Below, one piece after another: positions 1-11,521 of a DNA stretch of 64,000 bases; position 1 is the stretch's first letter; every line of letters begins with the position of its first letter. Source of the stretch: Georgenia yuyongxinii (lineage in GTDB: Bacteria > Actinomycetota > Actinomycetes > Actinomycetales > Actinomycetaceae); NCBI RefSeq assembly GCF_006352065.1, contig NZ_CP040915.1, forward strand, positions 1,054,001-1,118,000, given 5' to 3'. Position numbers and translations under genes: made by a program. Under the pieces are notes generated by a model, which was not told the origin of the DNA, made no database searches, and saw only the letters and a list, made by a program, of their open reading frames with translations.

Positions 1-1
1 C

Positions 2-2395
2 CTCCTCACCGACCTGATGTCCGTGTACAGGGCCGCCGGGTTCGAGATCCGCGACGGGCGCGACCCGGTCGCCGACGCCTCCGAGTACACGGCGGTGCTG
101 GTCGACGACGCCCACGAGCTCGCGCCGGCGGTGACTGACCGGCTGCACGGACTCGTGGAGGGGTCGGAGTGCCACCTCGTGGTCGCGTCCCGGCCGTGGC
201 CGCAGACCCCGCCCCTGCGGGCGCTGCTCGCCACTCTCGACCTGCAGCATCCGCCGGTCTCGCTCGGGCCACTGAGCCGTGACGACGTCGCGCTGCTGGT
301 CGCTCACCCGCGCGGACAGGCGCTCCCGGCCGCCGTCGTGGAGAGCCTCACCGAGGCCACCGGAGGGATGCCGTGGCTCGTGCAGCGCGTGGTCGCGGCA
401 TGGTCCCGCGAGGGCATCACCCTGCAGCCGGCCGAGGTGCTCGCCCAGCTCGGCCGTCAGCTCGAGCATCTCGACGACCCCCTGCGCGCGTTGCTGCTCG
501 ACCTCGCCGTCGGCTTCGACCCGGCGGGTGCGACGCCGCCGCCGGTGCTCGACGCCGACCCCAGCGGCACGGAGGAGGTCCTCGCGCAGGCCCGGGCTGC
601 CGGCTTCATGTCCCCGAGCGGGTCGCTGATCCCGCTGGTGGGAGATGCGATGGTCGCGGCGACGCCGACCCACCAGGTCCGGTCGCGTCAACGTGCGCTC
701 CTCGAAGCCATCGACGTCTCGGGGCGCCCGCTCAACGGCGTCGCCTCCCGGCTGGCTCGCAGCGGCATCGAGGACCCGCGCGTCGCCGAGGCGCTGGTGG
801 CTCAGGGCGACACGCTGCTGCCCCGAGACCCCGCCAAGGCCTTCGAGGTCTATTCGCAGGCCGTCGCGGCAGGCGCAGACCACACCGCCCTGGCAGCGCG
901 TCGCGCTCAGGCGGCCGCGCTCTCGGGCAACCTCGACCCCGCTGGGCGGCTGGTCGACGAGCTGCTCTCGCTGCCCGAACCGCCCGACCTGGGCCGGGCG
1001 GTCGACGTCGCAGCGGAGGTCTGGTCGCGCCGCGGGATGCTGTCGCGAAGCGCGGACGTCTACCGCTGGCTGGGCCCCGATAGAATTGGTGCTTCTGCCC
1101 CGCTCGCCGCGATCGCGCTGGTCGGCTGTGGCGACCGCGCCGGCATGGACGACATGCTGGCGGCAGCCGGCCCCCCGACGTCACCCACCCTGCTGGCCGC
1201 GGTGCCCACGTTGGTGTGCGAAGGCCTGCGCGAGACGCTCGACAGCGCGTCCACGAACGCCATGGGCTCCCTGGTCCGCGCCTCGGACATGATGACGGCG
1301 AGCGGTTCTACGCTGCCGATGCCGATGAACCCGGCCGCGTTGGCCGCGCTGGTGGCCCTGCACCTGGGCGAGCTGGCGGTTGCGGAGTCGGTCACCGAGG
1401 ACGCGCTTGCCGGAAACCAGGGCGGAGCCGGCTGCCGCCCGCGGCTGTTGCTCATGCGGGCCTGGACCGCGATGCTGCGCGACCGTCCCGACCACGCCCG
1501 CGCCGCGATCACCGAGGCCCGCTCCGCCGGCGAGGTCCTCTCCCCGCGCGACGAGCTGTTCCTTCGGGCGCTCGAGGTAGGGCTGGCCCGGCGTACGGAC
1601 GACCCCCCTGGCCTCGTCCAGGCGTGGGGTCGCGCCCGTGAGTCGATCCTCCACTTCCCGGTAGACCTCTTCACGCTGCTGCCGCTGGGCGAGCTGCTTG
1701 TCGCCGCCGCGCGGCTGCGGGACTCCGCGCGCATCGAGGGGCACGTCGCCGAGGCGTGGGCGCTGCTCGGCAGGCTCGGTGACCCGCCCTTGTGGACCGT
1801 GCCGCTGCACTGGGCCGAGGTCCATGCGGCCATCCTCGCCGAGCGCCCCGGACAGCTCGGGCCACACGCCGCAGCGCTCGTGCGGGCATCCGGGCAGAGC
1901 CACTTCGCCGCGGTCCTCGCCGCGGCGGGCCGAGTCTGGGTCAGCGTGCTGGCCGGCGACGTGGATGTCGAGGCAGTGGAGATCGCCGCGCGTGGCTTGG
2001 CATCCGTCGGCCTGACGTGGGACGGCTCCCGCCTGGCCGGGCATGCCGCCGCCCGGGCACCCGAGCGCAAGGACATGGCCCGCCTCCTTGCCCGCGCGCG
2101 CGACCTGCACCCTGCCGCCGCACTCGCGCCCGAGCAGGCACCCACGGCACCGCCTGGCAGCAACCGGTCCGGCACCCTCTTGGACGACAGCGGGCTGAGC
2201 CCGCGCGAGCGGGAGATCGCCGCCCAGGTGCTGGCCGGCAGGACCTATCGCGAGATCGGCGACGCGATCTACATCTCGCCCCGCACGGTGGAGCACCACG
2301 TTGCCCGGATCCGGCGCCGACTCGGTGCCTCCTCCCGGTCCGAGCTCCTCGCCCGCATGCGTATCGCGCTCGGCGAGGAGAGCTGGACGTCCTGA
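2..2395 (+). CDS. LuxR-family (LAL-type) transcriptional regulator, 5' partial; possible IniR counterpart
   Basis: Large ATPase-type regulator entering from the left edge. The frame is open from base 2, so the true start and the Walker A motif lie outside the window. A Walker B-like strand (AVLVDDAHEL) is near the visible N-terminus. A long helical, Ala/Leu-rich TPR-like middle follows. The C-terminal about 60 residues are a LuxR/GerE helix-turn-helix (LSPREREIAAQVLAG, then SPRTVEHHVARIRRRLG). The visible part is about 797 residues, close to the usual 800-950 for LAL regulators. It lies directly upstream of, and on the same strand as, two iniB-like genes. In Mycobacterium the LuxR-type protein IniR sits beside iniBAC and controls it, so the same role is plausible here. 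The family call is sure; the IniR link is inference from position. Confidence 0.9.
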   Translation, partial: LLTDLMSVYRAAGFEIRDGRDPVADASEYTAVLVDDAHELAPAVTDRLHGLVEGSECHLVVASRPWPQTPPLRALLATLDLQHPPVSLGPLSRDDVALLVAHPRGQALPAAVVESLTEATGGMPWLVQRVVAAWSREGITLQPAEVLAQLGRQLEHLDDPLRALLLDLAVGFDPAGATPPPVLDADPSGTEEVLAQARAAGFMSPSGSLIPLVGDAMVAATPTHQVRSRQRALLEAIDVSGRPLNGVASRLARSGIEDPRVAEALVAQGDTLLPRDPAKAFEVYSQAVAAGADHTALAARRAQAAALSGNLDPAGRLVDELLSLPEPPDLGRAVDVAAEVWSRRGMLSRSADVYRWLGPDRIGASAPLAAIALVGCGDRAGMDDMLAAAGPPTSPTLLAAVPTLVCEGLRETLDSASTNAMGSLVRASDMMTASGSTLPMPMNPAALAALVALHLGELAVAESVTEDALAGNQGGAGCRPRLLLMRAWTAMLRDRPDHARAAITEARSAGEVLSPRDELFLRALEVGLARRTDDPPGLVQAWGRARESILHFPVDLFTLLPLGELLVAAARLRDSARIEGHVAEAWALLGRLGDPPLWTVPLHWAEVHAAILAERPGQLGPHAAALVRASGQSHFAAVLAAAGRVWVSVLAGDVDVEAVEIAARGLASVGLTWDGSRLAGHAAARAPERKDMARLLARARDLHPAAALAPEQAPTAPPGSNRSGTLLDDSGLSPREREIAAQVLAGRTYREIGDAIYISPRTVEHHVARIRRRLGASSRSELLARMRIALGEESWTS

Positions 2396-2650
2396 CGGCG
2401 TTCTCACCCGAGGCCGTGGTGGCCTCGAATCGGCGTGCTTCCGCCCGTTGACCGCTGCTCTGGCGACCTCTGTCCCTTCCTCTGGCGGCCTCGCGCGTGA
2501 CCGTCGCCGCTCAGGACGTGGAGCCTCCCGGCCCGCATCGGACGATCACCCACCCCCCTCACCCCTGATGCCTCACCCCTGGGTAGTGGACCGGCGTCCG
2601 TAGGGGGTTTGGTTGCCCACCCCGCAACGTCGGTAATGCTGAGGGGATCA
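2396..2650. other. Intergenic region without recognised features
   Basis: Non-coding stretch between the LuxR regulator and the first iniB-like promoter. I see no convincing ORF, hairpin or repeat here. Together with the promoter and leader the whole gap to the next gene is about 350 bases. Operators for the upstream regulator could lie here, but nothing palindromic stands out. Confidence 0.5.
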
Positions 2651-2747
2651 ACTCCCGATGTGGCGCTGACCAGCCCGGTCATACGTTCACGGCAGGTCGA
2701 GCGGGCCGCCGCTCGACCCTACGTACTCAACGACGAGGAGAAACCCC
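2651..2747 (+). promoter_or_regulatory. Promoter and 5' leader hairpin of first iniB-like gene
   Basis: Elements shared with the second iniB-like gene are GATGTG at 2657-2662 and CATACGTTCAC at 2680-2690, start-to-start 23 bases in both copies. TACGTT (2682-2687) fits a TANNNT -10 box. Right after the expected start point is a perfect 10-bp inverted repeat, GGTCGAGCGG (2695-2704) and CCGCTCGACC (2709-2718), with loop GCCG. The ribosome binding site is GAGGAG at 2735-2740. The matching leader before the second gene has a different stem but the same loop and position. Confidence 0.6.
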
Positions 2748-3911
2748 ATGGCAACCACCATCGCCAGCCAGCTGCTCGAGTTCCTGATGAACCTCATGCG
2801 AGACCCCCAGGCCGCGGCCGAGTTCCGCGCCGACCCCGAGGCCGCACTCGACTCCGCTGGCCTCGCCGACGTCTGCAGCGCCGACGTGGACGCGGTCATG
2901 CCCGTCGTGATGGACCACGCGGTGAAGGTTGGCTCCTCCTTCGGACGCGAGGCCCGGGACGGCCGCGACGGCCGTGACGGTAGGGATGGGCGCGACGGCC
3001 GGGACGGCCGGGATGGTCGTGACGGGCACGGACACAAGGACGACGACAAACACGACCGCGACGACGACCACGGTCACGGTCGCGACCACGGTCATGGTCG
3101 GGACGACGACGACCACAGCCACGCCGTGCAGCAGATCTCTCACGTGGTGAACAACTACTCCTACACCTCCACGGTCGACGACCGGGACACCATCACCGAC
3201 CAGTCGGTCAACCAGAACATCTGGGCAAAGGGCGACGTGAACCAGTGGTTCGACAACGACGCCATGATCGCCTCCGGTGACGACTCGATCGCGGCCGGCG
3301 GTGACGTGGACGTGGACAACTCCACGAACAACTCCATCAACGTGCTGGCGCACGACTCCAACGTGGAGATCGGCAACACCGACGTCGACATCAACGACTC
3401 GTTCAACGACGACCACTCCACGGACAACTCCGACCACTCGACGAACGTCATCAACGACTCGTTCAACGACAACTCGGACAACTCCACCAACCTCGACGTC
3501 GACATCGACGACTCCTTCAACGACGAGTCGGTCGACGTGGACGTGGACGTGGACGACTCCTTCAACCAGGACAACGACGGCGTGGACATCGAGGAGGTCG
3601 ACGTCGACGACTCCTTCAACCAGGACAACGACGGCATCGACGTCGAAGAGGTCGACGTCGACGTGGACAACTCCAACCAGGACAACGTCACGATCTCCGA
3701 CAACGAGGTCGGCAACACCGAGATCTCGGACAACGTCGTCATCGCGGACAACGAGGTGGGCAACACCGAGATCACAGACAACGTCGTCATCGAGGACTCC
3801 TTCGACGACAACTTCTCGAACAACTTCACCGACGACGACGTCCTCGACATCGACGACCAGGACTTCGTGGACGTCGACAACACGGCCAACGACAACGAGC
3901 TGGAGCTCTGA
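2748..3911 (+). CDS. iniB: IniB-like acidic repeat protein (copy 1)
   Basis: The N-terminal about 60 residues form an IniB N-terminal-like helical domain (LLEFLMNLMRDPQAAAEF, then AGLADVCSADVDAVMPVV). Next come seven consecutive Gly-Arg-Asp triplets (residues 72-92), collagen-like in pattern, then a His/Asp-rich stretch (about 93-125) that could bind metal. A conserved block follows (VVNNYSYTSTVDDRDTI, SVNQNIWAKGDVNQWFDND). From about residue 190 to the end the protein is almost only Asp, Asn, Ser, Val, Ile and Glu, with recurring DDSFN and DNEVGNTEISDNVVI units. There is no signal peptide or membrane segment. IniB of mycobacteria belongs to an envelope-stress operon and its biochemical role is unknown. 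It is followed by a homologous copy and by dynamin genes. The IniB-domain assignment is fairly firm; the function is not. Confidence 0.85.
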   Translation: MATTIASQLLEFLMNLMRDPQAAAEFRADPEAALDSAGLADVCSADVDAVMPVVMDHAVKVGSSFGREARDGRDGRDGRDGRDGRDGRDGRDGHGHKDDDKHDRDDDHGHGRDHGHGRDDDDHSHAVQQISHVVNNYSYTSTVDDRDTITDQSVNQNIWAKGDVNQWFDNDAMIASGDDSIAAGGDVDVDNSTNNSINVLAHDSNVEIGNTDVDINDSFNDDHSTDNSDHSTNVINDSFNDNSDNSTNLDVDIDDSFNDESVDVDVDVDDSFNQDNDGVDIEEVDVDDSFNQDNDGIDVEEVDVDVDNSNQDNVTISDNEVGNTEISDNVVIADNEVGNTEITDNVVIEDSFDDNFSNNFTDDDVLDIDDQDFVDVDNTANDNELEL

Positions 3912-3925
3912 CGCTCCGACCGACC

Positions 3926-3966
3926 CGCCGGCCGGCCGTCGCAGCAGTCGCGAGGGCCGGCCGGCG
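3926..3966 (+). terminator. Hairpin terminator after first iniB-like gene
   Basis: Perfect 12-bp GC-only stem: CGCCGGCCGGCC at 3926-3937 pairs with 3955-3966. The 17-nt loop holds a further TCGC/GCGA pairing. It starts 14 bases after the stop codon and has no T-tract, as is usual for actinobacterial terminators. With the separate promoter of the next gene it suggests the first copy is transcribed alone. Confidence 0.65.
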
Positions 3967-4054
3967 TCTCCACCAGCCCCTACGGGCGCCCCGGGAGCGA
4001 ACCCCTAGTCCCCGAATCGGTGATCCCCCTCCAGGTACTCCCAGGCAGGGGGCC

Positions 4055-4149
4055 ACTCCCCGATGTGACCGCTTTCGCGCCGGACATACGTTCACAGTCA
4101 CCGGACGGGCCGCCGTCCGCAAGACCGTTCCCAAGGATGAGGACACTTC
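4055..4149 (+). promoter_or_regulatory. Promoter and 5' leader hairpin of second iniB-like gene
   Basis: GATGTG at 4062-4067 and CATACGTTCAC at 4085-4095 repeat the elements before copy 1 with the same 23-base offset. The following hairpin is CGGACGG (4102-4108) and CCGTCCG (4113-4119), loop GCCG, starting near the predicted first transcribed base. Stem sequences differ between the two copies while pairing and loop are kept. A purine-rich ribosome binding site (AAGGATGAGGA) precedes the ATG. Confidence 0.6.
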
Positions 4150-5367
4150 ATGACCAACATCGCCACCTCGCTGCTCGATTTCATTCTGGGCTTGCTCAGG
4201 GATCCCGAAGCGGCGGAGAAGTTCAAGGACGACCCGGAGGGCGAGCTGCACAAGGCAGGCCTGGACGACGTCAGCAGCGACGACGTCGACGCGGTGCTCC
4301 CAGTCGTGCTCGACTACGCGCCGGTCCGGGTCGACTCCTCCTTCGACCGCAACTACGACACCGGCGGCAACAGCTCGTGGGCTGGGCAGAGCGGCGGCCG
4401 CGACGGCCGTGATGGTCGCGACGGCCGCGACGACGACCATGGTTCCGGTGGTGGCCGTGACCACGGCGGTCGCGACGACGACCACGGCCACGGTGGCCGG
4501 GGCGACGACGACCGCGACGACGACCACGGTCGCGACCACGACCGCGGTGGCCGCGGCGACGACGACCACAGCCACGCGGTGCAGCAGATCACGCACGTGG
4601 TGAACAACTACTCCTACACCTCCACGGTCGACGACCGGGACACCATCACCGACCAGTCGGTCAACCAGAACATCTGGGCCAAGGGCGACGTGAACCAGTG
4701 GTTCGACAACGACGCCATCGTCGCCTCGGGCGCCGGTGCGATCGCCGCCGGCGACGACGTCTCGGTGGACGACTCCACGGACAACTCCACCAACGTGCTG
4801 GCGCACGACTCCAACGTGGAGATCGGCAACACCGACGTCGACATCAACGACTCGTTCAACGACGATCACTCCACGGACAACTCCGACCACTCGACGAACG
4901 TCATCAACGACTCGTTCAACGACAACTCGGACAACTCCACCAACCTCGACGTCGACATCGACGACTCCTTCAACGACGAGTCGGTCGACGTGGACGTGGA
5001 CGTGGACGACTCGTTCAACGAGGACAACGACGGCGTGGACATCGAGGAGGTCGACGTCGACGACTCCTTCAACCAGGACAACGACGGCATTGACGTCGAA
5101 GAGGTCGATGTCGACGTGGACAACTCCAACCAGGGCAACACCACCATCTCCGACAACGAGGTGGGCAACACCGAGGTCTCGGACAACGTCGTTATCGCGG
5201 ACAACGAGGTGGGCAACACCGAGATCTCCGACAACGTCGTCATCGAGGACTCCTTCGACGACAACTTCTCGGACAACTTCACCGACGACGACTTCGTCGA
5301 CTACGACGACCAGGACGTGGTCGACGTGGACAGCTCCCTGAACGACAACGACATCGACGCTCCCTGA
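4150..5367 (+). CDS. iniB: IniB-like acidic repeat protein (copy 2)
   Basis: Paralogue of the preceding gene with the same layout. The N-terminal IniB-like domain (LLDFILGLLRDPEAAEKF, then AGLDDVSSDDVDAVLPVV) has diverged clearly from copy 1. Four Gly-Arg-Asp triplets (residues 83-94) are followed by a longer His/Asp/Gly-rich spacer (about 95-140), then the VVNNYSYTSTVDDRDT block and the Asp/Asn-rich repeats. From about base 4594 to the end the DNA lines up with bases 3141 onward at a constant offset of 1453, without gaps and with few changes. Recent duplication or gene conversion of the repeat part is the simplest explanation, with slower drift of the N-terminal domain. It has its own promoter and a strong hairpin after the stop. 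No secretion signal or membrane helix is visible. Function unknown beyond the IniB family. Confidence 0.85.
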   Translation: MTNIATSLLDFILGLLRDPEAAEKFKDDPEGELHKAGLDDVSSDDVDAVLPVVLDYAPVRVDSSFDRNYDTGGNSSWAGQSGGRDGRDGRDGRDDDHGSGGGRDHGGRDDDHGHGGRGDDDRDDDHGRDHDRGGRGDDDHSHAVQQITHVVNNYSYTSTVDDRDTITDQSVNQNIWAKGDVNQWFDNDAIVASGAGAIAAGDDVSVDDSTDNSTNVLAHDSNVEIGNTDVDINDSFNDDHSTDNSDHSTNVINDSFNDNSDNSTNLDVDIDDSFNDESVDVDVDVDDSFNEDNDGVDIEEVDVDDSFNQDNDGIDVEEVDVDVDNSNQGNTTISDNEVGNTEVSDNVVIADNEVGNTEISDNVVIEDSFDDNFSDNFTDDDFVDYDDQDVVDVDSSLNDNDIDAP

Positions 5368-5387
5368 GGCTTGACGTCACGCTGAAA

Positions 5388-5440
5388 CACCACGGCCGGC
5401 CCTGCGCGATTTCCAATTGCGCGGGGCCGGCCCTGTGGTG
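5388..5440 (+). terminator. Long hairpin between second iniB-like gene and iniA-like gene
   Basis: Interrupted stem: CACCAC and GGCCGGCC on the left pair with GGCCGGCC and GTGGTG on the right, with an inner GCGC/GCGC pairing around an AT-rich loop. It lies 20 bases after the iniB-like stop and 30 bases before the dynamin start. It probably ends, or strongly reduces, transcription into the dynamin genes. Confidence 0.65.
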
Positions 5441-5470
5441 CGATAGGGGTCCAGCGCCGAAGGGGGCACC

Positions 5471-7372
5471 GTGGCCGATCTGGTGAAACTTGTCGAACAG
5501 ACCATCGCGCTGGTGCGCGACGGAGATCGGGCAGACCTGAGCCGCCGCCTCGAGCACACCCGGCAGCGGCTGCTCGACCCGAGCATCCGCGTCATCGTGG
5601 TGGGGGAGTTCAAGCAGGGCAAGAGCATGCTCATCAACGCCCTCGTCGGGGCGCCGGTGTGCCCGGTGGACGACGACATCGCCACCGCGGTGCCCACCGT
5701 CGTGCGCCACGGCGCGGCACCGTCCGCCGTCGTCCTCGTCCCCGACCCCGGCGGGACCGACGCCGAACCGACGGTGCAGCGACGGCCCGTCCCGCTGGAG
5801 GAGCTGCCCGCCTACGTGGGGGAGGCGGGCAACCCCGGCAACGTCAAGGGCCTCCTCGGTGCGGAGGTCACCCTGCCGCGGGCGATCCTCGCCGGCGGCC
5901 TCGCGATCATCGACTCCCCGGGGGTCGGCGGGCTGGACTCCGCGCACGCGCTGACCACCCTCACCGCCCTGCCCACCGCGGACGCCATGCTGCTGGTCTC
6001 GGACGCCTCCCAGGAGTACACCGAGCCGGAGGTCGCGTTCTTGCGTCAGTCCATGCGGGTGTGCCCCAACGTGGCCGGGGTGCTGTCCAAGACGGATCTG
6101 TACCCGCAGTGGCGCCAGGTCGCGCAGATCGACCGCGGCCACCTCGCCAAGGTGGACGAGGAGATCCCGCTGTTCCCCGTCTCCTCGGTGCTGCGCCTGC
6201 AGGCCGGTCGGGCCAAGAGCCAGGAGCTGAACGAGGAGTCCGGCTTCCCCGGGCTGATCGGCTACCTGCGCCGCGAGATCGTGGGCCAGGCCGAGCGGCT
6301 GCAGCGCCGGTCCGTCGCCCAGGACCTGCGCTCCACCGCCGAGCACCTACGCCTGTCGTTGAGCTCCGAGCTCGCCGCCCTGGAGAACCCCGAGGGCACC
6401 CCGCAGCTGCTCGCCGAGCTGGAGGTCGCCAAGGAGCACGCCGACGAGCAGCGCAAGAAGTCCGCCCGCTGGCAGGTGACCCTGAACGACGGCGTCGCCG
6501 ACCTCATCTCCGACATGGAGTTCGACCTGCGCGACCGGCTGCGGGCGGTCCAGCGTGATGCCGAGGCGGCCATCGACGCCGGAGACCCCGGCCCGGTGTG
6601 GGACCAGTTCACCGACTGGCTCGAGCAGCGGGTGGCCGCGACCGTCTCCGAGACGTTCCTCTGGACCTCCGAACGCTCCCAGTGGCTGGCCGAGCAGGTG
6701 GGCGCGCTCTTCGCCCAGGACGAGCTGCGCCTGCCGGTCCTCCGCGTCGACGACACCGACGACGTGCTCGACCCGGTACCGCTGGTGCCGGACCTCGACG
6801 CCGGGCATCTCTCGGTGACGCAGAAGGTGCTCATCGGCATGCGAGGCTCCTACGGCGGGGTGCTGATGTTCGGTCTGCTCACCGGCATCGCCGGCATGGC
6901 GCTCATCAACCCCATCTCCGTGGCCGCGGGGGTCCTGCTCGGCGGGAAGGTTTATCGCGAGGACAAGGAGGCGCGGCTGCGGCGGCGGCAGGGCGAGGCC
7001 AAGAGCATCGTGCGCCGGCAGATCGACGACGTCAGCTTCCAAGTGGGAAAGCAGCTACGCGACCGCCTCCGGATCGTTCAGCGCACCATCCGCGACCACT
7101 TCACCGAGATCGCCGAGGAGCACCACCGGTCGCTGAGCGACTCCGTGGTCGCGGCACAGCGGGCAGCCAGCATCTTCTCGGCCGAACGCGACCAGCGCAT
7201 CGCCGTGCTCAAGATCGACCTCAACCGGGTGGACGCGCTGGCCCGCAAGGCGGACGCGCTGGAGACGGCTGACGCCGAGGCACCAGAGCCCAGGTCGGCT
7301 CGCGCCGGCCGGGCGGGGACTCCGTCGCGGGTGGGACGACCTCGTGGCGGTGCGGTGGTGGCCGAGGCATGA
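5471..7372 (+). CDS. iniA: Dynamin-family GTPase, IniA-like
   Basis: Bacterial dynamin-like GTPase of 633 residues with a GTG start. The G1/P-loop GEFKQGKS is at residues 45-52, the G2 threonine lies in the ATAVPTV segment near 71-77, G3 DSPG is at 148-151 and G4 SKTD at 206-209. A helical stalk follows. A hydrophobic hairpin at about 457-495 (VLMFGLLTGIAGMALI, then VAAGVLLGGKVY) matches the membrane paddle of IniA-type dynamins. A second helical part and a basic, Ala-rich tail end the protein. Mycobacterial IniA is a membrane-fission dynamin linked to tolerance of cell-wall drugs. The gene overlaps the next dynamin gene by ATGA, so the two are surely cotranscribed, and they may form a heteromer. 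Confidence 0.88.
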   Translation: MADLVKLVEQTIALVRDGDRADLSRRLEHTRQRLLDPSIRVIVVGEFKQGKSMLINALVGAPVCPVDDDIATAVPTVVRHGAAPSAVVLVPDPGGTDAEPTVQRRPVPLEELPAYVGEAGNPGNVKGLLGAEVTLPRAILAGGLAIIDSPGVGGLDSAHALTTLTALPTADAMLLVSDASQEYTEPEVAFLRQSMRVCPNVAGVLSKTDLYPQWRQVAQIDRGHLAKVDEEIPLFPVSSVLRLQAGRAKSQELNEESGFPGLIGYLRREIVGQAERLQRRSVAQDLRSTAEHLRLSLSSELAALENPEGTPQLLAELEVAKEHADEQRKKSARWQVTLNDGVADLISDMEFDLRDRLRAVQRDAEAAIDAGDPGPVWDQFTDWLEQRVAATVSETFLWTSERSQWLAEQVGALFAQDELRLPVLRVDDTDDVLDPVPLVPDLDAGHLSVTQKVLIGMRGSYGGVLMFGLLTGIAGMALINPISVAAGVLLGGKVYREDKEARLRRRQGEAKSIVRRQIDDVSFQVGKQLRDRLRIVQRTIRDHFTEIAEEHHRSLSDSVVAAQRAASIFSAERDQRIAVLKIDLNRVDALARKADALETADAEAPEPRSARAGRAGTPSRVGRPRGGAVVAEA

Positions 7373-8889
7373 GCACCGAGGGTGGGGTGCGGCTCCTGCT
7401 CCGGGAGGCCTTGGAGGTCTACGCGGACGACCCCGTTGCGGCCACGTCCTTGCACGGCTGGGCGAGCCGCCTCGACGGCCCGCTGCGGGTGGCCATCGCC
7501 GGGATGGTCAAGGCCGGCAAGTCCACCCTGCTCAACGCCATCCTCGGCGAGGAGCTCGCACCCACGGACACCGGTGAGTGCACCCGGGTGGTCACGTGGT
7601 ACCGCCACGGGGCCACGCCCCGCGTGACCCTCTACCCCCGCGACGGCGAGCCGCGGCAGCTACCGCTGCGCCGGGTGGAGGGCCGGTTGCGCCTCGACCT
7701 CGGCGGGACGCCCGCGGAGGAGGTCGCTCGCCTGGTGGTGGACTGGCCCACAGCGGGCCTGCGGGACCTCACGCTCATCGACACACCCGGCATCGCCTCG
7801 CTCTCCACGGACGTCTCGGCACGGGCGACGGCGTTCCTCACGCCCGAGGACAGCCCCTCGGAGGCCGACGCCGTCGTGTACCTCATGCGGCACATGCACG
7901 GCTCCGACATCCACTTCCTCGAGTCCTTCCGCGACGCCGAGGCCGGCCGCTCCGGCACGGTGAACGCGCTGGCGGTCCTCTCGCGCGCGGACGAGGTGGG
8001 CGCCGGCCGGCTGGACTCGATGATCTCCGCGCGGGACGTCGCCCGCCGCTACCGTGAGGACCCCTCGCTGCGGCCGCTCGCCCTCTCGGTCGTCCCCATC
8101 GCCGGGCTGCTGGCGCAGAGCGCCCGGACACTGCGCCAGTCCGAGTTCGCCGCGCTGCGCGAGCTCGCCGAGCTCGGGCGCGAAGAGCGTGAACGGTTGC
8201 TCCTGTCCGCCGACCGGTTCACCCGCGCCGAGATCACGCCGGCCGTCGACGTGACCATGCGGGCCGCGCTGGTGGAGCGGCTGGGCCTGTTCGGGCTGCG
8301 GCTCGCGCTGGTGCTGATCCGCAGCGGACTGGACGACCCGACCGACCTGGCCCGCGAGCTGGCACGGCGCAGCGGCCTCGGCGAGCTGCAGCGCCTCATC
8401 GACGGGCAGTTCCAGGCCCGGTCCGCGCAGCTGAAGGCGCGCACCGCGCTGGTGGGTTTGGAGACCCTGCTGCGGACGCGTCCCCGGCCGGGGACCGAGC
8501 GGCTGGCCACCGAGCTCGAGCGCATCCAGGCGGGGGCGCACGAGTTCCGCGAGCTGCGGCTGCTGGGGACCGCGCGGACCGTCGGCCTGGGGCTGCCGCG
8601 GGACCTGGAGGCCGAGGCCGAGCGGCTCGTCGGGGGCCGGGGCGTGGCACCCGCCCGGCGCCTGAACCTGGCCGACGGTGCGAGCGACGCGAAGATCCGG
8701 GCCGCCGCGCTCGAGAGCCTGCGCCGCTGGCGAGCACTGGCGGAGAACCCGCTCACCGACCGGTCCACGGCTGGTGCGTGCGAGGTCGTCGCGCGCAGCT
8801 GTGAGGCCCTGGTCGTCGCCGCCCAGCCGGTCGCGGGGCCCACCACCCGCCCGCAGCTACGCCCGGAACCAGCGCGAGGCGGCGGGTGA
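7369..8889 (+). CDS. iniC: Dynamin-family GTPase, IniC-like
   Basis: Second dynamin-like GTPase, 506 residues. G1 GMVKAGKS is at residues 45-52, G3 DTPG at 138-141 and G4 SRAD at 205-208. The rest is an amphipathic Leu/Arg/Ala-rich helical stalk with no clear membrane hairpin. This differs from the IniA-like partner and agrees with the shorter IniC of mycobacteria. It starts inside the stop of the upstream gene (ATGA). Its 3' end overlaps the convergent membrane-protein gene by 33 bp, so read-through from either side would produce antisense RNA. The family is clear; the iniC name rests on order and size. Confidence 0.85.
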   Translation: MSTEGGVRLLLREALEVYADDPVAATSLHGWASRLDGPLRVAIAGMVKAGKSTLLNAILGEELAPTDTGECTRVVTWYRHGATPRVTLYPRDGEPRQLPLRRVEGRLRLDLGGTPAEEVARLVVDWPTAGLRDLTLIDTPGIASLSTDVSARATAFLTPEDSPSEADAVVYLMRHMHGSDIHFLESFRDAEAGRSGTVNALAVLSRADEVGAGRLDSMISARDVARRYREDPSLRPLALSVVPIAGLLAQSARTLRQSEFAALRELAELGREERERLLLSADRFTRAEITPAVDVTMRAALVERLGLFGLRLALVLIRSGLDDPTDLARELARRSGLGELQRLIDGQFQARSAQLKARTALVGLETLLRTRPRPGTERLATELERIQAGAHEFRELRLLGTARTVGLGLPRDLEAEAERLVGGRGVAPARRLNLADGASDAKIRAAALESLRRWRALAENPLTDRSTAGACEVVARSCEALVVAAQPVAGPTTRPQLRPEPARGGG

Positions 8890-9633
8890 CAGGCTGACGA
8901 TCCAGGCCACGACGGCCAGCCCGAGCTGGATCAGCAGCGGCCAGCGCACCGCGGCGCCCGCACCGCCCGGCGCCGCGAGGTAGGCCTCCGCCAGCACCAT
9001 GACCGCCGCGTGGACCACCAGGACGAAGAACGCGGCCACCCGCGGCCACGCGCGCCGGCGCATCATCGTGCGCAGCAGCAGCGCCTCGAGGACCACGACG
9101 AGGGCGATCGCGCCGAGCGAGCCCCAGAAGACCAGGTTCGCCAGCGCCTCGAGGGTGGCGGCGTCCCGTCCGGGGGCGAGGTCGGTGACCGTCTCGAGCA
9201 GCCGCTGCTTGCCGTCGTCCCGATTGAGCCAGGAGAAGCCGACGGCGACGAGGCCGGCCACGAAGCTGAGCAGCCACAGCGTGCGGCTGGTGCGCAGGGC
9301 GCCGGGGGCCTCGACCTCGCGGTGGACAGGCGCGTCCGCCTGGTAGGTCACGGGCGGCCGCTGGGGCGGTCCGGGCTGGCTTCCCGGCTGAGGCGGCCCC
9401 GGCTGCGACGGGGCGACGTGCACCGTCGTCTCGTCACCAAGCGGCTGCGGGCCCGGCACGTTCGACCCCGGAGGCTGCGCCGTCGGGCCTACCGCCGCCG
9501 GCCCTGAGCTCGACGGCGGCTCTGCGGCCGGATCTCGCGGGTCGGGGATTCGTGGGGTGTCGGCCGCGTGACGACCCGCCGGCCCCCCGCGCCGCTGCTG
9601 CCGTGAGAGGTGGGACCCCTGCTCCTCGGACAT
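8857..9633 (-). CDS. Hypothetical membrane protein with four helices
   Basis: 258 residues. The first about 115 residues are hydrophilic, Pro/Gln/Gly-rich and probably disordered. Four hydrophobic segments follow: LLSFVAGLVAVGFSWL, LVFWGSLGAIALVVVLEALLL, AAFFVLVVHAAVMVLAEAYLA and LLIQLGLAVVAWIVSL. The protein ends a few residues after the last helix (ASRWFRA). No known domain is recognised. It converges on the IniC-like gene with a 33-bp overlap, so a link to the dynamin system is possible but rests only on position. Confidence 0.7.
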   Translation of the reverse strand: MSEEQGSHLSRQQRRGGPAGRHAADTPRIPDPRDPAAEPPSSSGPAAVGPTAQPPGSNVPGPQPLGDETTVHVAPSQPGPPQPGSQPGPPQRPPVTYQADAPVHREVEAPGALRTSRTLWLLSFVAGLVAVGFSWLNRDDGKQRLLETVTDLAPGRDAATLEALANLVFWGSLGAIALVVVLEALLLRTMMRRRAWPRVAAFFVLVVHAAVMVLAEAYLAAPGGAGAAVRWPLLIQLGLAVVAWIVSLSPAASRWFRA

Positions 9634-9832: not shown

Positions 9833-11521
9833 CTACACCAGCGCCTCGCGCAGCACGTCGAGGCCGACCGAGCCGATGTCCAGCGCCCGGCGGTGGAACG
9901 CCTTGAGGTCGAGCTCGCCGCCGTCCCGCCGCGCGGCCGTCCCCGCGTCGTCGCGGATCTCCTCCCACAGCCGCTGACCGATCTTGTAGGCCGGGGCCTG
10001 CCCCGGCCAGCCGAGGTACCGGTCCAGCTCGAAGGCGAGGAAACCCTCGGCCATGTTGGCGTTGGCCTTGAGGAAGGGCCACGCCTTGGCGGCGTCCCAG
10101 GTGCCCCCGCCCCACTCGTCGGGGGCCGGCTTGCCCAGGTGCACCCCGATGTCGAGCACCACCCGCGCGGCACGCAGCCGCTGCCCGTCGAGCATGCCCA
10201 TCCGGTCGCCCGGGTCGTCGAGGAAGCCCAGATCGGCCATGAGCCGCTCGGCGTACAGCGCCCAGCCCTCGCCGTGGCCGCTGACCCAGGAGGCCATCCG
10301 CCGCCACATGTTCAGCAGGCCCGAGCGGTAGACGGTCTGCCCGATCTGCAGGTGATGCCCCGGCACCCCCTCGTGGTAGACGGTCGTCTTCTCCCGCCAG
10401 GTGGCGAAGTCGGTCACGCCCGCCGGCACCGACCACCACATCCGCCCCGGGCGGGAGAAGTCGGCGCTGGGCCCGGTGTAGTAGATGCCGCCGGACTGGG
10501 TCGGGGCGATCATGCACTCCAGCCGCCGGACCGGTTCGGGGATGTCGAACTGCGCGTCCGTCAGCGCGGCGACGGCCTCGTCGGAGGTGGCCTGCATCCA
10601 CTCGCGCAGGGCAGGCGTGCCGTGCAGCATGCGGTCGGGGTCCTTGTCGAGCCGGTCCATCGCCTCACGGATGCCGGTCCCCGGGCCGTAGAGCTCCTCG
10701 GCCACCGCCTGCTGCTCCGCGACGACCCGGGCCAGGTCCTCCTGCCCCCAGGCGTAGGTCTCGTCGAGGTCGACGACGGCGCCCAAGAAGTACCGCGACC
10801 ACAGCCCGTAGCGCTCGCGGCCCACGGCGTCGAGCTCCGGGGCGTCGGGGGCGAGCTCCTCGCCGAGCATCCGGGCCAGGTCGGCGTAGGCCTGCCGGGC
10901 GTCACGCGCCCCGGCCTCGAGCTCGGCGGCGAGCGCCCGGTGTGGGGCCTCGCCGTCGGGCTGGGCGCCGGCGGTGAAGGTGGTGAAGAAGGAGGTGTCG
11001 GCGTCGGCGAGCTCGTCGGCCTGCTTCAGGCACGCCTCCACCTGGCGCAGGGCCGCCACGTGGCCGGCGCCGCGGGCGGCGAGGAGGGAGTCCTGGTAGC
11101 CGTCGAGCGCCGCGGGCACGGCGCGCAGGCGTTCGGCGATGGTCTCCCAGTCGGCAGCGGTGGCGGTGGGCATGAGGTCGAAGACCTCGCGCACGGCCTG
11201 GACCGGAGAGGCGATGACGTTCAGCTCGCGGGTGAGCTCGCCGGCGTCGGCCAGCTCGACGGCGACCCCCAGGCGCTCACGCATCGCGGCGTGGGTGACG
11301 CGGTCGACGCCGTCGACCGGCGCGACGGCCTCGAGCTCGGCGAGCGTGGCCCGGTCGAGGTCGGTGCGTGCGGCGAGCCCGGCGGGGGAGAGGTCGGGCA
11401 TCTCGTGGTCGTGGCCGGGCAGGCCCAGACTGGTGGCCTCGAGCGGGTCGAGCGCGATGCGCCGCATGACGTAGGCGTCGGCGACGGCGTCGGTCGGGGT
11501 GGGCTGGCGTGTCTCGGTCAC
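9833..11521 (-). CDS. DUF885 family protein (putative zinc metallopeptidase)
   Basis: 562 residues, the normal length for the DUF885 family. The diagnostic motif HEGVPGHH lies near residues 380-388, where the HExxxxHH-like histidines and glutamate could bind zinc. Conserved downstream features include the WRRMASWVSGHGEGWALYAERL segment and a C-terminal EEIRDDAG region. No signal peptide is seen, so it should be cytoplasmic. The family is generally treated as dipeptidase/carboxypeptidase-like, but substrates are mostly unknown. Monocistronic: its upstream side carries dispersed repeats and its downstream side a hairpin. Confidence 0.85.
   Translation of the reverse strand: MTETRQPTPTDAVADAYVMRRIALDPLEATSLGLPGHDHEMPDLSPAGLAARTDLDRATLAELEAVAPVDGVDRVTHAAMRERLGVAVELADAGELTRELNVIASPVQAVREVFDLMPTATAADWETIAERLRAVPAALDGYQDSLLAARGAGHVAALRQVEACLKQADELADADTSFFTTFTAGAQPDGEAPHRALAAELEAGARDARQAYADLARMLGEELAPDAPELDAVGRERYGLWSRYFLGAVVDLDETYAWGQEDLARVVAEQQAVAEELYGPGTGIREAMDRLDKDPDRMLHGTPALREWMQATSDEAVAALTDAQFDIPEPVRRLECMIAPTQSGGIYYTGPSADFSRPGRMWWSVPAGVTDFATWREKTTVYHEGVPGHHLQIGQTVYRSGLLNMWRRMASWVSGHGEGWALYAERLMADLGFLDDPGDRMGMLDGQRLRAARVVLDIGVHLGKPAPDEWGGGTWDAAKAWPFLKANANMAEGFLAFELDRYLGWPGQAPAYKIGQRLWEEIRDDAGTAARRDGGELDLKAFHRRALDIGSVGLDVLREALV

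Follow-up and report, generated by a model that had tools for sequence, protein, structure and literature searches.

What does a gene set of the mycobacterial iniBAC kind do in Georgenia yuyongxinii, and what switches it on? The stretch that raises this question, hereafter the window, spans 64,000 nucleotides (C1:1054001-1118000) of a 4.17 Mb genome in a single contig. The ini gene set occupies the first 9.6 kb and comprises an IniR-like regulator, two IniB-type genes, two dynamins, and a convergent membrane gene. The locus in fact begins outside the window, ~2.17 kb ahead of it, where an Hsp70-like gene starts. That it is an ini system, complete and of actinobacterial type, is close to certain, and it is highly probable that the Hsp70-like and four-helix proteins are true ini components. 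The locus is a variant of the known iniBAC kind, and its new content lies in the conserved Hsp70-like and four-helix partners, the common promoter block, and the ATPase pattern described below. Its elements are as follows, in window coordinates except for the first.

C1:1051830-1053857 of the genome, wholly outside the window, + strand: Hsp70-like membrane ATPase gene, 675 aa (Pfam HSP70, 1.3e-47)
1..2395, + strand: iniR-like regulator, 844 aa, first 140 nt before the window (NF038181, GerE, motifs)
2620..2688, + strand: candidate promoter/operator block of iniB copy 1 (CCCC arm, GGGG arm, CCCGATGTG, CATACGTTC)
2748..3911, + strand: iniB copy 1, 387 aa (IniB_NTERM, 76.3 bits; repeats)
3926..3966, + strand: hairpin 3' of iniB copy 1 (-41.9 kcal/mol over a 74-nt stretch, z -3.5)
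4025..4093, + strand: candidate promoter/operator block of iniB copy 2 (best matrix match in the window, 37.2 bits)
4150..5367, + strand: iniB copy 2, 405 aa (IniB_NTERM, 72.0 bits; identity profiles)
5388..5440, + strand: very stable hairpin between iniB copy 2 and iniA (-51.9 kcal/mol over an 83-nt stretch, z -5.5)
5471..7372, + strand: iniA-like dynamin GTPase, 633 aa, GTG start (Dynamin_N, 3.8e-19)
7369..8889, + strand: iniC-like dynamin GTPase, 506 aa (Dynamin_N, 1.8e-12), 4-nt overlap with iniA
8857..9633, - strand: convergent membrane protein, 258 aa (Pro-rich N-terminus, four hydrophobic segments, pI 10.1)

An earlier note, made from the letters of the window, had named a LuxR regulator, two IniB-domain genes, and two dynamins, and all of them lie where it placed them. 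Both short N-termini match the IniB N-terminal domain model NF038175 above its cut-off (76.3 and 72.0 bits; cut-off 40), and the IniB genes adjoin a tandem IniA-IniC dynamin pair and iniR, the arrangement of an ini operon. The dynamin genes are coupled, as the note had it, through a 4-nt overlap at 7369-7372. The first dynamin carries GTPase motifs G1, G3, and G4, the second G1, G3, and a non-standard SRAD. The solved IniA 6j72 is matched over 2-602 by profile A1, whose rows include mycobacterial-type ones, and the window IniA-like protein is 39-43% identical to four mycobacterial-type rows, combining a full-length relation to solved IniA with the GTPase motifs. IniA mediates membrane fission (PMC6715688). 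The regulator shows the architecture of IniR, with a P-loop (GPGGTGKT) and a Walker B-like segment in its ATPase domain, a long middle region, and a C-terminal LuxR helix-turn-helix (HTH; GerE, 7.7e-13). Once completed, it aligns to positions 10-825 of the 827 in the IniR model NF038181 at 489.5 bits, which misses the curated cut-off of 750 bits; three mycobacterial-type IniR proteins reach 1272-1415 bits. The window regulator is classed as IniR-like, not as an IniR equivalog. IniR was identified as a regulator in M. marinum and M. tuberculosis and controls iniBAC, with trehalose as inducer (PMC5760070).

To place the locus among its relatives, an alignment of 15 IniA sequences served as survey query, and the best 80 of 587 confirmed relatives were taken, a sample that leans to close relatives. 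Together with loci from further genomes they make up a main set of 98 non-duplicate loci, with 12 others that are more distant; the duplicates L026, L040, L043, and L051 and the loci L019, L021, and L025, with insufficient IniA in the stretch, were dropped from the main set, and near-copies such as L014 and L076 were retained. The ini set is near-fixed and consists of the Hsp70-like gene, iniR, one or more iniB genes, iniA, iniC, and the convergent four-helix gene. All 98 main loci have the second dynamin, adjoining the first in the layouts. The Hsp70-like gene, which ends 3 nt before iniR in the window genome, stands directly before iniR on the same strand in 78 of the 83 main loci whose sequence extends 1200 nt or more upstream, at a spacing of mostly -4 to +6 nt and up to 33 in Microbacterium-type loci. 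Only one of the five exceptions is real, namely L023, where the gene is truly absent before iniR. L028 and L083 have a split iniR, with the Hsp70-like gene next to its first piece; in L050 both genes are broken, and in L038 the two make up one frame-shifted open reading frame (ORF). This last case was considered as a Rosetta-stone fusion of Hsp70 and IniR and rejected, because the joining stretch reads as an out-of-frame run.

The convergent gene at the other end of the locus encodes, as claimed, a protein with four hydrophobic segments, and it overlaps the last dynamin gene by 33 nt. A relative is found 3' of iniC in 83 of the 95 loci with room for it; the loci in which none was detected are the mycobacterial-type L020, L022, L023, and L024 and, besides these, L028, L038, L046, L047, L067, L099, L100, and L103. 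The protein matches no Pfam, NCBIfam, or PADLOC family. In the flanks of 48 loci (ORFs of at least 110 aa) one family, ABC-F-like, recurs in three lineages and none in four, so that the ini system looks complete with its six families. The locus is bordered by a DUF885 protein (9833-11521, - strand; Pfam 1.7e-164), whose family is not conserved across lineages in the flanks examined.

For co-occurrence, strict IniB thresholds were used, because a relaxed model had given matches (E up to 1, all below the cut-off) in 8 of 14 control genomes. Among 297 genomes of the order, IniB_NTERM is found in 11, IniA homologues in 21, and an Hsp70-like protein of this type in 24. The earlier note expected such dynamins to lie near iniB-like genes in relatives, and the 11 IniB genomes are indeed the 11 best of the 21 with IniA homologues; the other 10 have no IniB match at threshold. 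IniA and the Hsp70-like protein occur together in 20 of the 297 genomes (Fisher 3.6e-26). In G144, IniA is accompanied by a degenerate Hsp70-like gene (L013), G065, G107, G135, and G201 have weaker Hsp70-like matches without IniA, and the Hsp70-like gene lies apart from the dynamins in G060 (~10 kb) and G079 (other contig). In a sample of 296 genomes of the phylum, IniB, IniR, and IniA are common to the same six genomes; G379 adds an IniR-like protein and IniA, at these thresholds IniA is the only one of the three seen in G345, G326, G331, and G406, and G581 shows no more than a sub-cut-off IniB match. An ini locus on a contig labelled Planococcus sp. APC 4015 (L098) has an IniA that groups among Microbacterium-type loci, and the record is probably mislabelled or contaminated.

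The genera with ini loci include Georgenia, Arthrobacter, Pseudarthrobacter, Paenarthrobacter, Agromyces, and Microbacterium, none of them known to have mycolic acids. This makes a general, non-mycobacterial envelope role of the ini system plausible, as the earlier note had proposed; a literature search returned nothing direct on Georgenia.

The Hsp70-like protein aligns with DnaK 2v7y over residues 4-361. A substrate-binding domain was not found in it, the profile match stopping near residue 356-361. Instead, one hydrophobic segment (424-442) is followed by a Pro/Thr-rich low-complexity tail, and 93 of 94 tailed Hsp70-like entries (three duplicate records among them) likewise have a hydrophobic segment and then a mostly P/T/S/A/G-rich stretch. 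In the protein of the window genome, the residues aligned to what we take to be D8, K70, E171, D194, and T199 of DnaK are all present, and its ATPase domain appears intact. No description of the pairing of ini genes with Hsp70 was found in open-access literature on Hsp70/iniBAC, dynamin-like/Hsp70, or ini genes in Arthrobacter or Microbacterium. A dnaK-like gene adjoins iniR in M. smegmatis and is barely treated in the available text of PMC5760070.

The note had also assigned a promoter and a hairpin to each iniB copy, and both assignments held up. A scan of the 4.17 Mb genome for the exact pattern CCCGATGTG-N(12-22)-CATACGTTC gave two matches, which both lie at this locus, and 0 control matches. 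In 99 distinct iniB upstream regions, CCGATG is present in 78 (9 expected by shuffling) and CCCCTAA in 56 (2.4 expected). Relative to CCGATG, CCC lies at -35 to -33 (92-96%) and GGGG at -11 to -8 (79-95%), and TACGTT or TAGGTT follows 20-21 nt past it in 46 of the 78. The block of window copy 1 has CCCCT variants, not CCCCTA, and that of copy 2 has CCCCTA twice. Most iniB genes thus have a common promoter block, the core of which both window copies carry. Across the surveyed loci, finding the operator before iniB is partly circular, most of them being in the training set; the window test is not, as it used a matrix built from 63 non-Georgenia iniB upstream regions. This matrix ranks the two iniB promoters first and second in the 64 kb (37.2 bits for copy 2, 15.9 for copy 1), with the next-best scores at 0.3 bits on the other strand and -7.3 on the same strand. 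CCCCTAA repeats also precede iniB and iniB* in the mycobacterial-type loci L020, L022, and L023. By contrast, CCCCTAA is found on the gene's own strand in just 1 of 95 Hsp70-like upstream regions, and the Hsp70-iniR unit would then be expressed apart from its iniB targets. The CCCCTAA/GGGG boxes may be the IniR binding sites, and we propose them as a candidate operator. A loose operator pattern was too unspecific to define a regulon in nine Georgenia genomes, with 9 matches against 1 for the control in the window's own genome and, for example, 4 against 8 or 5 against 4 in others, overlapping matches being counted repeatedly.

As for the hairpins, 0 of 200 shuffles were as stable as either (z -3.5 and -5.5), and the interval between iniB and iniA has z below -2 in 62 of 86 loci. 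RNA data in PMC5760070 point to an excess of IniB, and the iniB-iniA hairpin is in keeping with this.

By pattern, the P-loop is kept in 51 of 103 IniR-like proteins (incomplete and split ones and three duplicates included), and the whole IniR ATPase domain is lost in two main Arthrobacter-type clades and in single loci. Such a loss is unexpected for a STAND switch. The state of the Hsp70-like protein was scored on the residues aligned to the five DnaK positions given above. In 83 loci, IniR ATPase is lost and Hsp70 intact in 36, IniR ATPase kept and Hsp70 degenerate in 18, both are kept in 28, and both are lost in 1 (Fisher 4.9e-5, ignoring relatedness), so that 36 of the 37 loci with IniR ATPase loss have intact Hsp70 residues. 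This table includes the distant L116 and L117 as well as L023, whose Hsp70-like gene does not adjoin iniR, and leaves out L024, L107, L108, and L110 (IniR on another contig or cut), L045, L109, and L111 (altered Walker A), and loci without a scored pair. In L028 the P-loop is in the other piece of the split iniR ORF and was counted as kept, and L083 was likewise corrected. On the tree, there are 5 label changes for the IniR-ATPase-lost group and 7 for the Hsp70-degenerate group (L028 counted as lost, L019 left out). The reciprocal pattern is suggestive of a shared nucleotide switch and is not proof of one.

These features can be joined in a single scheme. The Hsp70-like protein would be anchored in the membrane, the ATPase domain facing the cell interior and the Pro/Thr-rich tail lying in the wall. 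Made together with IniR and apart from the iniB genes, it would hold IniR inactive or license it, according to the state of the wall. Upon damage, IniR, acting as a MalT-like STAND ATPase where its P-loop is kept, would bind the CCCCTAA/GGGG boxes and turn on the iniB promoters. The iniB-iniA hairpin would allow IniB to be produced in large excess over IniA and IniC. The acidic IniB, built of a small head domain and a tail of Asp/Asn repeats, might coat or scaffold the damaged membrane, which the IniA-IniC GTPase pair might remodel or seal, possibly with the four-helix protein as membrane partner. The whole chain, from a membrane Hsp70-like protein that gates IniR, through IniB and the dynamin pair, to a general envelope-stress response, comes near an even chance of being right. 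The gating of IniR by the Hsp70-like protein is a tentative proposal. A wider formulation is rather doubtful: the ini response would be a chaperone-gated switch in which a wall-spanning membrane Hsp70 ATPase senses wall damage and controls a STAND regulator, the switch could be transferred from regulator to Hsp70 in evolution, and the mycobacterial operon would be the reduced form of an old, general actinobacterial membrane-repair system.

Several observations weigh against gating. Relatedness among the loci confounds the reciprocal ATPase pattern: with 3 to 7 pairs, tests on independent pairs were not significant. L019 appears to be without both ATPases. An Hsp70 ATPase cannot be needed everywhere, since the mycobacterial-type loci have degenerate Hsp70-like residues and L023 carries the gene in convergent orientation to iniC. 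In the divergent loci L013, L019, L020, L022, L099, and L100, the Hsp70-like gene and iniB or iniA flank one and the same intergenic region, where boxes could serve either side or both. Among the 12 more distant dynamin loci, 10 have the Hsp70-like gene; it does not precede iniR in L109, L111, L116, and L117, the four where this is visible, and in L112 and L113 it accompanies the dynamins and no IniR was found. The layout of the distant loci suits a partner of the dynamins or of IniB equally.

The main rival to gating builds on this last point. The Hsp70-like protein might be a chaperone for assembly or disassembly of IniB or the dynamin pair at the membrane, with IniR sensing trehalose or a relative of it in the manner of MalT. 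Besides the distant loci where the gene accompanies dynamins, it draws on the identification of IniR as a regulator with a trehalose inducer in M. marinum and M. tuberculosis (PMC5760070), and on the P-loop kept in about half of the IniR-like proteins. However, in 78 of 83 loci it is iniR to which the gene is coupled, and not iniB or the dynamins; the ini boxes almost never precede it on its own strand, and the protein has no substrate-binding domain. We consider the chaperone explanation to be on the unlikely side. As to the distant loci themselves, L109 and L116 were judged by reading to encode an IniB-like protein, although L116 scores 19.1 bits (cut-off 40) and L109 has no match. G379 holds two separate distant ini-like loci (L116, L117), each with an IniR-like protein, two dynamins, and an Hsp70-like gene. 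In L112:3451-15839 and L113:4665-18513, an Hsp70-like gene with several hydrophobic segments and two dynamins lie inside a contractile-injection-system cluster; the L112 cluster has CIS_tube, Phage_base_V, GPW_gp25, and Baseplate_J, and relatives 58-78% identical flank the same genes in L113. A literature search found no paper on dynamin/Hsp70-like genes within such clusters.

A GTPase pair, an Hsp70, and a STAND-type regulator could also form a phage-defence or intracellular conflict module, of the Leo type or like the GTPase-Hsp70 systems. The first dynamin matches PADLOC LeoA/LeoBC models weakly at 44.7-50.8 bits and the second at 24.0-49.9, actinobacterial GTPase-centred systems with Hsp70, some without a peptide-binding domain, have been described (PMC7159879), and the distribution is patchy, with IniB in 11 of 297 genomes. 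This explanation is improbable, as the regulator, dynamin, and IniB families are those of the wall-drug-induced mycobacterial operon (PMC5760070), no flanking family recurs in four lineages among the 48 loci, and dynamin, IniR, and IniB are absent from the available text of PMC7159879. A catalogued defence system, Leo-type or other, was rejected, since the PADLOC matches are weak, with 19.9 bits for the HTH of the regulator and none for the other four proteins.

The doubled iniB gene, to which the earlier note drew attention, is present and is nothing new. Two or three iniB-type ORFs occur in 35 of the 98 main loci (1 in 59, 2 in 28, 3 in 7, 0 in 4; a split gene, e.g. in L087, can count twice), which led us to reject the doubling as a surprise, and in Georgenia IniB is found in eight of nine genomes and two IniB in four of nine. 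Mycobacteria themselves carry iniB* plus iniB (PMC5760070). What was overlooked at the locus, besides the Hsp70-like gene and the common promoter block, is a gene conversion between the copies. Copy 1 consists of the IniB_NTERM domain, an acidic linker, a conserved core (about 123-200), and Asp/Asn-rich DSFN repeats. The copies are 60% identical in the N-terminal domains, with 21 of 57 third positions changed, 86% in the cores, and 97% in the repeats (residues 201-345), the last in both protein and DNA. Each N-terminal domain is nearer its counterpart in two other Georgenia genomes (79 and 75% identity for copy 1, 76 and 72% for copy 2) than its neighbour, whereas the repeats of both window copies are 64-75% identical to the copy 1 repeats of those genomes and 41-45% to the copy 2 repeats; in L122 the core was not located in either copy. 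Because the heads match the counterpart copies while the repeats match the copy 1 type, an old duplication was followed by gene conversion, in which copy 1 overwrote the core and repeats of copy 2. A tandem duplication of recent date and with no functional meaning would account for the 97% identity of the repeats, and is very improbable given the diverged heads and the copy 1 type of both sets of repeats. Like repeats with unlike heads suggest a common assembly that both IniB proteins join. The IniB head may belong to the small-domain kind of the Os17/LigA type: window copy 1 weakly matches Pfam LigA (E 0.031), and a divergent IniB-like protein (L116:14944-16098, - strand) weakly matches both IniB_NTERM and Os17, a leader domain of the NHLP clan for ribosomally synthesised and post-translationally modified peptides (E 0.0044). 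The mycobacterial-type genome G333 has a third, distant IniB_NTERM gene (L021:9672-12605; open frame of 995 aa) with CCCCTAA boxes upstream, around which no ini neighbours were detected within 20 kb.

Both the switching-on of iniBAC and the role of IniB are described as unclear in the available text of PMC5760070 and PMC13413693. The membrane Hsp70-like partner, the candidate operator, and the four-helix partner make them directly testable, and soil actinobacteria outside the mycobacteria are convenient places for such tests. If gating is true, it would be a bacterial case of an Hsp70 that controls a STAND-type regulator. Eukaryotic NLR receptors, which are under chaperone control, offer a parallel.

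Compared with known systems, the window locus stands closest to mycobacterial iniR-iniB*-iniBAC, with which it has in common an IniR-family regulator, two genes with the IniB N-terminal domain, and IniA followed by IniC (PMC5760070). The order of the iniBAC region claimed for the window holds in this gene set and in the succession IniB-IniA-IniC, and the mycobacterial-type loci L020 and L022 also have the Hsp70-like gene directly upstream. The order does not hold for iniR, which is divergent in L020, L022, and L023 and co-directional with iniB in the window. Unlike the mycobacterial-type loci, the window locus lies in a host outside the mycobacteria and has intact Hsp70-like residues, an Hsp70-like gene coupled to iniR, and the convergent four-helix protein. 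Its IniB has a conserved core and Asp/Asn repeats, whereas mycobacterial IniB is described as homologous to a glycine-rich wall protein (PMC6715688). With DnaK/Hsp70 the Hsp70-like protein has the full ATPase domain in common, and it differs in having one membrane helix and a Pro/Thr-rich tail in place of the substrate-binding domain. LeoABC and other bacterial dynamin-like proteins, for which paired GTPase genes are known, have the same dynamin GTPase fold; however, the nearest solved relative of the window dynamin over its whole length is IniA and no Leo protein, and the neighbours are others. MalT-type STAND regulators are built in the same way as IniR, with an N-terminal P-loop ATPase, a middle region, and a C-terminal LuxR HTH (comparison with MalT in PMC5760070), but IniR has lost the ATPase domain in several lineages. 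The GTPase-Hsp70 conflict systems also combine GTPases with Hsp70, sometimes without the peptide-binding domain, and as far as the text of PMC7159879 was available they differ from the ini locus in having no dynamin, IniR, or IniB.

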